Assembly: GCA_029851125.1 (NCBI GenBank)
Contig: CP100319.1
Span: 139,762-203,761 of the forward strand
Length of the DNA: 64,000 bases
Reading direction: 5' to 3'
DNA from: Candidatus Bostrichicola ureolyticus
GTDB taxonomy: Bacteria > Bacteroidota > Bacteroidia > Flavobacteriales > Blattabacteriaceae
A program made the translations under genes and the position numbers. Positions 6,901-51,583 of this stretch are shown piece after piece. Each line of letters opens with the position of its first letter. The first letter of the stretch is position 1. The notes under the pieces were generated by a model. The model saw only the letters and a program-made list of their open reading frames with translations. It did not search any database and was not told the DNA's origin.

Positions 6901-9267
6901 TTATCTATCTATCATAAAATGTAGTTTATAATTTGAATTATCAAATCCATATCCTATATCAATTCCTAAAATACCAATATAAGGAATAAATATCCTAAAA
7001 CCAGTACCAATAGATTTTTTTAAATCTAAAGGATTATAATTTTTAATATTAGAATATATATTTCCAGCTTCTAAAAATCCTAATATACCCATTTTAATTG
7101 GTTGATTAAAAAATGGATTTTTAATAAAAAATGGATAAATAATTTCAATAAAAATTTTATTTTTAATAAAATCAGAATTAGAATCATAACCTCTAATATT
7201 TAAAATAAAATTATTAATATTAATAGGAAATCTATAATTTTTATTTGTATAGTTTCCTAAAATTCCAAATTCTATTCCAATTTTTGCAATCAAATTATTA
7301 AATATTTCTTTATACAAAAATCCTGATAATTCTATTTTATAATATTCAAATAATTCTAAAGTTTTTTTAAAATAAGGTAAAGTAAATATTGTATTTATAT
7401 TAAATACTGAACCAGTTTTAGGATAAAAAAAATGTTTTTGTGGTAAAGAATTAGCATTATATATAAAATTATAATTTATATCAACTCCATTATTATATAT
7501 ATAATAGTTAATAAATGATTTAATATTAAAATTATTAATTATTTTATTTATTCCTATAGAAAATCCTATATTATATTTATTTTCTTTATTTTCTTTATTA
7601 TCATCCAAAGATAAATATTTTTTTATATTATTTTTAATATTATAAATATTATTTATCTGATTATATATAAATTTATTAAAAATATTATCTTTATAAGAAT
7701 CATCATATTTTAAATTATTTGAAATAATTTTTTGATTTTTCAAATCAATATTTATTAATAATGAAGTATTATTTATTAATGGTTTAATAAATAAAATTCC
7801 TATATTTTGAATATTTAATCCTAATTTTGTATTTAATGATAAATATTCTCCACTTCCAATAGGATTTATAGGATTTCGAAATTTATCTAAAATAGAAAAA
7901 TTATAAATGTTATAAACTATATTAAATACCAATTTATCATCAATTATTGACGAATTTAAAAAAATTTTATTATTATTTAATTCTGATATTTTCCATTCTA
8001 AATCTACAGTATTATTACTATTTAATTTTAACTCATTCTTAGCTTTAAGATAACCTAAATTAGAAAGTCTAATTATAGTATTTTCAATTTCTTTTTTAGA
8101 AAAAACTTTTCCTGGATATGTAGTTATTTCATTAATAATAATATTATCTTTAGTTTTTAAATTTCCTGAAAATTTTACTTTATTTAAAATAATTATTGGA
8201 CCTTCATATATATATACATATAAATCAATTTGATTATTTTTTTTTATAACTTTTTCATTTATTTTAATTTTAAAAAATAAATAACCTTTATCTAAATAAA
8301 AAGAACTAATATTATCTATAATAATCTTATTAATATCAATTAAATTATTTTTTCTTTTTAAAAAAGAAAATTTATTATTTAAAAAATTTGAATCAAATAT
8401 TTTATTACCTTTAAAAAAAATATTTCTTAAAAAGAATTTCTCCCCTTCATAAAGTTTAATATATAATATATAATTATTATTTTTAGTTTTAAAAAATTTT
8501 TCTTTTATAATTTTGGCATTTATAAAACCTAAAGATTTATAATAATTAATTATATTATATTTATTTAAGTAATAAATTACTTTATTAATTTCTAGATTTT
8601 TTTTATATAAAAAAGAAATTAATTTATTATAAGAAATATTTTTATTTCCTTCAAATATTATATTTGTTATCTTATTTTTTATATTATTTCTATTTAATAT
8701 AGAAATATGCAAATCATTTTTAATAATAGTAAATATTATATATATATTATATATTCCTTTTTTTATGAAAAAATTTTTAATATTATTTTTAATATCTATA
8801 ATTAAATTATCATTTAATAATATTCCATTTTTTATATAATAATATTTATTATATTTTTTAATTAATGTATTAAAATTTTTTTTAAAATAAGATATATTTA
8901 TACCTTTTATATTTATATTTTCAATTAAAGGCCAATTTTTTAATTTAAAAAATAAAATAATTTTATTATTTTTTATATTAAAAATATATAAATGCATTTC
9001 TTTAAATGCAGAATTATATTTAGTTATAATAGTATTTATTTTATATTTAGATATATTATCTCCAATTTTTAATTTAAAAAATTTTAATAAATCTTTTTTA
9101 TTTCCTATATTAAATATAATATCTTTTATAATAAAATTATTGTTATTATTAAATATATCTATTGATTTTTTTTCAACATTTATTGAATATTTTGATTTGG
9201 CTGATTCAGCATGTATAAAAAAAGATGTAAGTAATAAAAATATAAATAAAACTGTATATTTTTTCAT
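6901..9267 (-). CDS. bamA: Outer membrane assembly factor BamA
   Basis: A 788-residue Omp85-family protein: signal peptide (MKKYTVLFIFLLLTSFFIHA), repeated POTRA-like segments over about the first 400 residues (for example GNKNISYNKLISFL, GNKIFDSNFL), then a beta-barrel ending GIDIGYGFDN...LHFMIDR. The barrel loop has RGYDSNSDF in place of the VRGF motif. BamA folds beta-barrels into the outer membrane. The protein is extremely rich in Asn, Ile and Lys because of AT bias. It lies between fabF and the skp gene. Confidence 0.93.
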   Translation of the reverse strand: MKKYTVLFIFLLLTSFFIHAESAKSKYSINVEKKSIDIFNNNNNFIIKDIIFNIGNKKDLLKFFKLKIGDNISKYKINTIITKYNSAFKEMHLYIFNIKNNKIILFFKLKNWPLIENINIKGINISYFKKNFNTLIKKYNKYYYIKNGILLNDNLIIDIKNNIKNFFIKKGIYNIYIIFTIIKNDLHISILNRNNIKNKITNIIFEGNKNISYNKLISFLYKKNLEINKVIYYLNKYNIINYYKSLGFINAKIIKEKFFKTKNNNYILYIKLYEGEKFFLRNIFFKGNKIFDSNFLNNKFSFLKRKNNLIDINKIIIDNISSFYLDKGYLFFKIKINEKVIKKNNQIDLYVYIYEGPIIILNKVKFSGNLKTKDNIIINEITTYPGKVFSKKEIENTIIRLSNLGYLKAKNELKLNSNNTVDLEWKISELNNNKIFLNSSIIDDKLVFNIVYNIYNFSILDKFRNPINPIGSGEYLSLNTKLGLNIQNIGILFIKPLINNTSLLINIDLKNQKIISNNLKYDDSYKDNIFNKFIYNQINNIYNIKNNIKKYLSLDDNKENKENKYNIGFSIGINKIINNFNIKSFINYYIYNNGVDINYNFIYNANSLPQKHFFYPKTGSVFNINTIFTLPYFKKTLELFEYYKIELSGFLYKEIFNNLIAKIGIEFGILGNYTNKNYRFPININNFILNIRGYDSNSDFIKNKIFIEIIYPFFIKNPFFNQPIKMGILGFLEAGNIYSNIKNYNPLDLKKSIGTGFRIFIPYIGILGIDIGYGFDNSNYKLHFMIDR

Positions 9268-9315: not shown

Positions 9316-10547
9316 TTATATTTTTTTAAATAAAATACTAACATTATGTCCACCAAATCCCAAAGTATTAGACATACTTATATTTATATTTCTTTTTTGA
9401 GCTTTATTTTTAGTTAAATTTAACTTAGTATTTATATCAATATTAAAAATATTAATTGTAGGAGGTATAATACCTTTAGTAAATGGCAATATAGCTGCTA
9501 TAGTTTCTATAGCTCCAGCTGCACCTAATAAATGACCTGTCATTGATTTTGTTGAATTTATATTTATGTTATAAACATTTTCTGAAAATAGATGTTCAAT
9601 AGCTTTTATTTCTGTTCTATCTCCTAATATAGTAGACGTACCATGAGTATTTATGTGATCAACTTCTGAAGTAAGAATATTAGCATCTTCTAATGCATTT
9701 TTCATTGCATTTATTATTCCTATACCTGAAGGATTAGGAGTTGTTATATGATATGCGTCACTTGATAATCCTACTCCCTTTATTTCAGCATACATTTTAC
9801 TTCCTCTTGCTTTAGCATGTTCATATTCTTCAATGACAATACATCCAGCACCTTCACCTAAAACAAAACCATCTCTATCTCTATCAAAAGGACGAGAAGC
9901 TGTTTTATAATCATTATTTCGCGTAGATAAAGCATTTAATGCATTAAATCCACCAACACCACTATAGGTTATAGCAGATTCTGAACCACCAGAAATTATT
10001 ATATCAGCTTTTCCTAAACATATTAAGTGATATGCATCAACAATAGCATTAGCCGATGAAGCACATGCTGATACAGTTGCGTAATTAGGTCCACTAAATC
10101 CATTATTTATAGAAATAATTCCAGGAGTAATATCAATTATTATTTTAGGAATAAAAAATGGATTATATCTGTGTTTTTTTTTTTAAAAAAATTATACGTT
10201 TCTTGTTCAAAAGTGATAATACCTCCCAGACCTGAACCCCATATAACACCTATACGATCTTTATTTTTTTTATTTAAACCACTATCAATAATAGCTTCAT
10301 TAGAAGCTATTATACCATATTGGGTACATAAATCTAATTTACGTTGATTTTTTTTATCAAAAAAAACATCTTTATCATAATTTTTTATTTCACAAGCAAA
10401 TTTTGTTTTAAAATTTGTAGTATCAAAAGATCTAATTAAATTACAACCATTTTTTCCGTTAATTAATGAATTCCAATAATCATTAACATTATTTCCAATA
10501 GGAGTAAATGCTCCTAATCCTGTAATTACTACTCTTTTTAACTTCAT
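9316..10547 (-). CDS. fabF: 3-oxoacyl-ACP synthase II, frame broken at a poly-A run
   Basis: The first part (from ATG at 10547, which overlaps the acpP stop as ATGA) reads [18 protein letters not shown] and stays open to about residue 126. The second part is in another frame and continues [15 protein letters not shown] (active Cys), NTHGTST and NTLGFGGHN (both active His) to a normal stop. The break is inside 11 As (10174-10184, Ts on the plus strand). With 12 As the frame is restored and gives 410 residues, the normal length. FabF elongates fatty acids on ACP. Every catalytic residue is intact, so transcriptional slippage, a sequencing indel or very recent inactivation are all possible. Confidence 0.88.
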
Positions 10548-10798
10548 TTTTGACATTTTTCACTTTTATGTTTTTCTACTATATAAGAAATAGCATCACC
10601 TACAGTAGAAATTTTTTCTGCATCTTCATCAGAAATTTCAATATTAAATTCTTTTTCAAATTCCATAATAATTTCAACTTGATCTAACGAATCTGCACCT
10701 AAATCATTAGCAAAATTAGAGGATGTAGTAATTTCATTTTCATCAACTCCTAGTTTTTCTACAATAATAGCTTTTACTATTGAGGAAATATCTGACAT
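10544..10798 (-). CDS. acpP: Acyl carrier protein
   Basis: An 84-residue acidic protein with the phosphopantetheine site [11 protein letters not shown] (Ser in DSL) and the usual four-helix pattern. It carries acyl chains in fatty-acid and lipid A synthesis. The C-terminal tail (KHKSEKCQK) is slightly longer than usual. It is followed directly by fabF with a 4-base ATGA overlap, which supports coupling and makes 10547 the likely fabF start. Confidence 0.97.
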
Positions 10799-51392: not shown

Positions 51393-51583
51393 TTTATTTA
51401 AATATTTTAAAAAAAAAAATATAATATATATAAAATATATATAATATATATTATATAAATATTATTAATATTTATTAAAATAATATTTTATTTAAATATT
51501 TTAAAAAAAAAAATATAATATATATAAAATATATATAATATATATTATATAAATATTATTAATATTTATTAAAATAATATTTT
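51393..51583 (+). repeat. Exact 94-base tandem duplication
   Basis: Positions 51393-51489 repeat with an offset of 94 bases, ending at 51583, without a visible mismatch. The unit is A/T only and includes an 11-A run. It fills most of the gap between the divergent rnpA and lysC genes. Confidence 0.92.

Follow-up and report, generated by a model that had tools for sequence, protein, structure and literature searches.

Does a fabF gene whose two halves lie in different reading frames still make a working enzyme? We asked this of a window of 64,000 nucleotides (contig CP100319.1, positions 139,762 to 203,761; positions below are those of the window unless a contig is named) from a Bostrichicola genome that consists of one contig of 344,793 bp. 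According to those parts of the genus paper that we consulted, Bostrichicola symbionts occur in Lyctus and Dinoderus beetles (PMC10284843). With a GC content of 22% in the window, the genome is that of an AT-rich insect endosymbiont, as the sequence-only reading of this locus had supposed. Among named records the closest is Candidatus Bostrichicola ureolyticus LBRU2 (CP100318.1), with 88% protein identity over the second half of FabF. We took CP100318.1 and genome G001 of our comparison set to be one genome, the two being identical over 10,801 compared bases and 100 bases apart in length; this sister was the only other Bostrichicola compared. The present genome is labelled G000.

Direct reading of the sequence revealed a run of 11 Ts on the plus strand, that is, 11 As on the coding strand of fabF, where the run follows seven Ts (A7 at 10185-10191 on the plus strand). 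The two fabF halves, each matched by the TIGR03150 profile, overlap on this T7A11 stretch, so the claim that two FabF frames meet at 11 As is borne out. The coordinates are collected in Table 1.

Table 1. Features of the fabF locus and of the other genes split at A/T runs in the present genome (G000) and its sister (G001)
Feature	Position	Strand	Remarks
fabF, first part	10140..10556	-	frame-0 ORF, 138 aa; ATG 10556, second ATG 10547; about 11 codons beyond the tract, then TAA; TIGR03150 profile 1-127, 129.1 bits
A11 tract, frame-change site of fabF	10174..10184	-	T7 directly 5' on the coding strand
fabF, second part	9316..10182	-	different frame from first part; stop-free over 288 codons (10182-9319), then stop; first ATG, GTG or TTG not before 9795; TIGR03150 profile 123-407, 416.4 bits
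Predicted catalytic cysteine codon (in ATVSACASS)	10063..10065	-	in fabF second part, ahead of its first possible start codon
acpP, acyl carrier protein	10544..10798	-	upstream of fabF, 13-base overlap with fabF start; unbroken; NF002151 115.3 bits, cut-off 92
alaS tract	G000:C1:226037-226046 and G001:C1:221432-221441	+	A10 in both, near gene start, same state
holA (DNA polymerase III delta) tract	G000:C1:328812-328820 and G001:C1:320510-320518	-	A9 in both, then G
rnhA (RNase HI) tract	G000:C1:247116-247126 and G001:C1:241770-241779	-	same A run in both species
Split tracts of the present genome			fabF A11, mraY A11, rnhA A11, holA A9 and A10, rsmD T10
Split tracts of the present genome (continued)			yggS A10, tilS A10, nrnA A10, alaS A10, murD A12
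Sister-only sufB, murB, lon and rlmB splits	G001:C1 near 163203 and 156987 (L114), 212708 (L141), 73086 (L138)

The addition of one A to the tract yields a FabF of 413 aa from the first ATG (MSKMK) or, as had been claimed, of 410 aa from the second. This read-through protein scores 560.1 bits against TIGR03150 (the NCBIfam fabF model; cut-off 493.75) and matches 27 distinct solved sequences at E values of 1e-100 or better. In the alignment with the best of these, 4ls5, no gap falls at the tract. In an alignment of 13 Bacteroidota sequences the loop encoded by the tract lacks one residue relative to most, and two others (L098 and L095) deviate in length at the same place. The expected cysteine and two histidines, which we take to be the catalytic residues, are present in the read-through protein and in the 12 other aligned FabF sequences. 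The 288 stop-free codons of the second half and its 88-89% identity to the sister FabF exceed what chance would produce. We rejected a FabF assembled from two separately translated pieces: the first possible start codon of the second part comes after the cysteine codon, and thus this part alone cannot provide the active site. Of the 11 A/T runs of at least 11 bases in the window's long genes (ORFs of at least 345 codons, plus fabF), the other 10 are in frame. Two A11 runs at 51409-51419 and 51503-51513, 94 bases apart and with identical 41-base contexts, resemble a short direct repeat in intergenic DNA.

A profile search of the whole genome with PF00109 found the two fabF halves and no other ketoacyl synthase, which disposes of a second fabF or fabB elsewhere; a second intact fabF was one part of what the sequence-only reading had named as speaking against it. 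No fabH match was obtained in the genome by a search whose control was positive in 13 of 14 genomes. A single PF00109 gene and no fabH match make fabF the sole condensing enzyme found, and the gene is probably essential in this genome. The fatty-acid genes that we examined were fabF, fabH, fabG, fabD, fabZ and acpP, with fabI and the acetyl-CoA carboxylase genes left out. fabG and fabD are unbroken and score above their cut-offs; fabZ is unbroken and nearly full length, slightly below its cut-off (153.4 against 155.15). The consulted text of the genus paper states complete fatty acid synthesis for Bostrichicola genomes (PMC10284843).

Comparing the tract in a related genome, as had been suggested, gave a result that does not favour the fabF case: the sister fabF is intact, with 416 open codons, and the break is unshared. 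Consequently, it may be recent. The claim that the second half shows no decay held up. Its dN/dS against the sister is 0.41 and that of the first half 0.60, while the median of 39 window genes is 0.40 (range 0.13-1.18). When amino-acid changes were polarised with 11 outgroups, 4 in the second half fell on the present branch, 9 on the sister branch and 18 on neither with certainty; the corresponding counts for the first half were 2, 2 and 14. The second half therefore displays neither decay nor acceleration. In the same window, a BamA-like outer membrane protein (6901-9267, minus strand; TIGR03303, under cut-off) has only 39% identity with its counterpart in the sister, much less than most of its neighbours. 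FabF was matched in 29 of 40 genomes searched, the present one included, and in 26 of the 29 the best match lies in an open frame of at least 415 residues, one of which (G021) has a TAA in the matched stretch. The exceptions are the present genome, a remnant in G002 and G032, a 1.7 Mb genome of the same order in which fabF is in two pieces with an internal stop (G032:C35:7213-8018, plus strand).

How much weight can an intact frame bear? In a neutral simulation, 285 codons stayed free of stops with P 0.59 at 0.01 substitutions per site, 0.33 at 0.02, 0.08 at 0.05 and 0.007 at 0.1. From these sequence comparisons an old dead fabF is unlikely. The high values at low divergence, by the same token, would leave a young break invisible, so that the intact frame is weak evidence. 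They also speak for a reading in which a recently inactivated fabF has drifted to fixation as a pseudogene that has not yet started to decay, with lipids coming from the host or a partner symbiont. The missing fabH match points the same way, as does true decay of dnaB, mraY and murE in the sister, where the replicative helicase gene dnaB (L143, G001 about 273376-273937, minus strand) has several frame breaks away from long runs and the present copy is open. Against recent inactivation stand the other fatty-acid genes examined, all unbroken, and the character of the breaks in this genome. Of 174 sister ORFs with a match in the present genome, 140 align in a single frame over at least 80%, and breaks were flagged in four. 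A/T runs are the site of three of these breaks (fabF, rsmD and yggS); the fourth flag, on dnaN, was a tRNA artefact, and dnaN is intact. Once it is removed, no breaks away from such runs are seen among these ORFs. We regard recent inactivation as improbable.

fabF is not alone. We listed all A runs of at least 11 and of exactly 10 bases genome-wide on both strands, and surveyed their flanking DNA together with the window (219,397 bp, about 64% of the genome); the 78 surveyed runs of exactly 10 are all 78 places in the genome, and 9-base runs are covered within the surveyed DNA. In this DNA, 11 tracts in at least 10 genes are split at A/T runs of 9-12 bases, a lower bound on the genes because C-terminal splits were left out of the search. 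All 11 tracts need one additional nucleotide (or the loss of two) to restore the frame (sign test, 0.001). Another 146 tracts of at least 9 bases, 27 of them A runs of at least 11, are in frame in ORFs of at least 120 codons, as judged from open frames alone, which could hide a split.

The split genes differ in how well both of their parts are supported. Family models recognise the upstream as well as the downstream part in rnhA, holA (at its middle tract), rsmD and yggS. In mraY, murD, tilS, nrnA and alaS they match the downstream part only, and the downstream pieces of tilS, nrnA and alaS score under whole-protein cut-offs. The short upstream part of mraY alone has no family match, which counts against the set. 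Only a short N-terminal stretch is lost in alaS, tilS, nrnA and at the first holA tract, and the protein could there be rescued by an unusual start codon; this could not happen for fabF, rnhA, middle holA, rsmD and yggS. For alaS and nrnA, two of the four breaks that the sister has in the same state, such a start codon counts against the slippage reading. Two points on holA weigh against the gene: the dN/dS of its second half is 1.08, against constraint there, and rescue by slippage would have to occur twice within one message. Loss of mismatch repair was rejected as the cause of the splits, as mutS is unbroken in the present genome and its sister (mutL lay outside the search). The present genome retains murE and the tract-split murD. 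In the text available to us, the genus paper reports that murC, murD and murG are lost in the L. brunneus symbiont and that all peptidoglycan genes are kept in Dinoderinae symbionts (PMC10284843). This suggests that the present genome resembles the Dinoderus type.

A uniform need for one extra nucleotide is also what under-called homopolymers would leave behind. If one A had been lost in base-calling or assembly, the chromosome would have 12 As and an intact fabF. The genus genomes were built from Illumina libraries, with Nanopore libraries and hybrid assembly in the case of two host species and PacBio added for D. porcellus, as far as the consulted text of the paper goes (PMC10284843); the words "frameshift", "homopolymer" and "pseudogene" are absent from its main text. 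Since the fabF break is absent from the sister, an under-call is the main rival for fabF taken alone. Against it stand the 146 in-frame tracts, including the 27 long A runs. The broken tracts are also concentrated near gene starts, which errors should not bring about: 6 of 11, placed by hand, lie within the first 35 codons as against 24 of the 146 intact ones (P 0.007), a count biased by a special search of gene starts. For fabF we consider a lost base unlikely, if well within reason.

A further argument against sequencing error comes from the sister, of which 228,411 bp plus 1,801 bases were surveyed. Six of the 11 broken tracts are out of frame there as well, and four of the six (alaS, rnhA, the middle holA tract and nrnA) are in the same state; tilS and the N-terminal holA tract are shifted in the opposite direction. 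The six leave out mraY, which is broken in the sister but decayed elsewhere, and murD lay outside the comparison. fabF, rsmD and yggS are intact in the sister. Under independent errors, chance would give the overlap with a probability of 0.001-0.005 for the four same-state tracts and below 0.0003 for the six in any direction, on the assumption of 100-150 comparable tracts and with all our P values (overlap, sign and position) being post hoc. Breaks common to both species are thus not easily explained by independent base-calling errors. Of 31 genomes searched, 22 gave a holA match and 24 an rnhA match, and the gene stands as two adjacent pieces in the two Bostrichicola genomes only; rnhA is one match in one frame in the 22 other matching genomes, and the holA match is weak in several other symbionts and may be to a paralogue. 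The sister has splits of its own in sufB (A15), lon (A12), rlmB (A10), murB (A10) and tatC (A10). Only 8 of its 12 split tracts need one extra nucleotide; the other four (sufB, tilS, first holA and mraY) need the loss of one or the gain of two, so that the direction rule fails there, against a slippage reading.

The sequences A AAA AAA and A AAA AAG are slippery motifs for -1 ribosomal frameshifting. Such a shift on the A run, where A AAA AAA stands in frame 0, would give the same full-length FabF from a faithful message of 11 As, and would supply the extra nucleotide needed at all 11 breaks. Frame-0 AAA AAA codons lie within the fabF tract, and A AAA AAG closes both the middle holA tract and that of yggS. 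However, the rsmD break is at a T run, and none of 13 sites, fabF included, has the stimulators looked for: nothing like a Shine-Dalgarno sequence occurs within 20 nt upstream, and the 75 nt downstream do not fold with unusual stability (z -0.93 to 1.38; fabF -0.2), with tilS, nrnA, alaS, murD and tatC outside this test. Programmed frameshifting of the stimulated kind was accordingly rejected on the basis of these 13 sites. In dnaX, a case of bacterial -1 programmed frameshifting, the slippery sequence is likewise A-rich and the net frame change equal; the 13 sites here differ in having no stimulators. We think that there is only a slim chance that the ribosome makes the correction at fabF.

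We slightly favour, at a little better than even, a working fabF whose tract frameshift is restored by RNA polymerase slippage. The chromosome would carry 11 As where 12 would hold the frame. RNA polymerase would slip on the run, so that a share of the transcripts gains one A; these would be translated into full-length FabF with a loop of four lysines, and the remaining transcripts would terminate after 138 residues. At least 10 genes of this genome, fabF included, would then live with such a break. We infer the real tract length, the mixture of transcripts and the polymerase, not the ribosome, as the shifter. In the sections consulted of a Buchnera transcription survey, homopolymers (A/T runs) account for 151 of 157 transcription insertions, 80% of these insertions are of one base, and their frequency climbs exponentially as runs lengthen to 11 bases (PMC5574713). 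This bias has the direction that all 11 tracts require. For Buchnera and Blochmannia genes, a review puts corrected transcripts at 12-50%, in the part that we drew on (PMC5009743). Two published observations stand against slippage, as far as the consulted portions of each source go: the Buchnera survey found no restored-frame case (PMC5574713), and the RNA polymerase of E. coli is less prone to slippage on A runs than on T runs (PMC6260861). That fabF is a slippage candidate, as the sequence-only reading had it, is thus upheld in part, by the single tract frameshift, the clean second half and at least 10 similar genes; what tells against it is that the fabF break is not common to the sister.

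The set of split genes, with its shared breaks, makes a stronger case for frame correction in the lineage than fabF itself does. We tentatively propose, at somewhat less than even confidence, that Bostrichicola has relied genome-wide on +1 homopolymer frame correction in at least 10 genes since before its two species split. Full-length FabF (its only ketoacyl synthase), alanyl-tRNA synthetase, RNase HI and DNA polymerase III delta would then be made only after slippage, and the breaks that persist would be those whose direction is best suited to correction by RNA polymerase. This would extend to a Bacteroidota symbiont of beetles a tolerance of homopolymer frameshifts that is documented for symbionts among the Gammaproteobacteria. 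A gene set with one required direction, several of whose breaks are found across species, can separate slippage, ribosomal shifting and assembly error. It also matters for annotation, as automatic pipelines may label a sole essential enzyme such as FabF or AlaRS a pseudogene and so alter the metabolic reconstructions of reduced genomes.

Work by Tamas (2008) and Wernegreen (2010) is said to have described poly(A)-frameshifted genes rescued by slippage in Buchnera and Blochmannia. So far as we could consult the sources, the present genes resemble those in lying in an AT-rich insect endosymbiont, in having a single indel in an A/T run and an otherwise clean gene, and in that some breaks occur across species. 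They differ in belonging to a member of the Bacteroidota, not a gammaproteobacterium, and in being known from DNA alone; here, moreover, the only ketoacyl synthase found is hit, and the fabF break occurs in one species. In Blochmannia vafer, the consulted part of the report describes eight homopolymer-frameshifted genes, of which four were tested and none was accelerated (PMC3017870). There, as here, several genes per genome are affected, DNA replication included (dnaX and dnaG there, holA here), and visC has an 11-A tract (PMC3017870); the genes themselves differ, and here at least 10 are found within roughly 64% of a genome of 345 kb. Ca. Walczuchella is a flavobacterial endosymbiont from a related bacterial group, for which the text available to us lists homopolymer-frameshift pseudogenes, some of which may stay functional according to its authors (PMC3971599); in Bostrichicola, by contrast, the tracts have been compared across two species.
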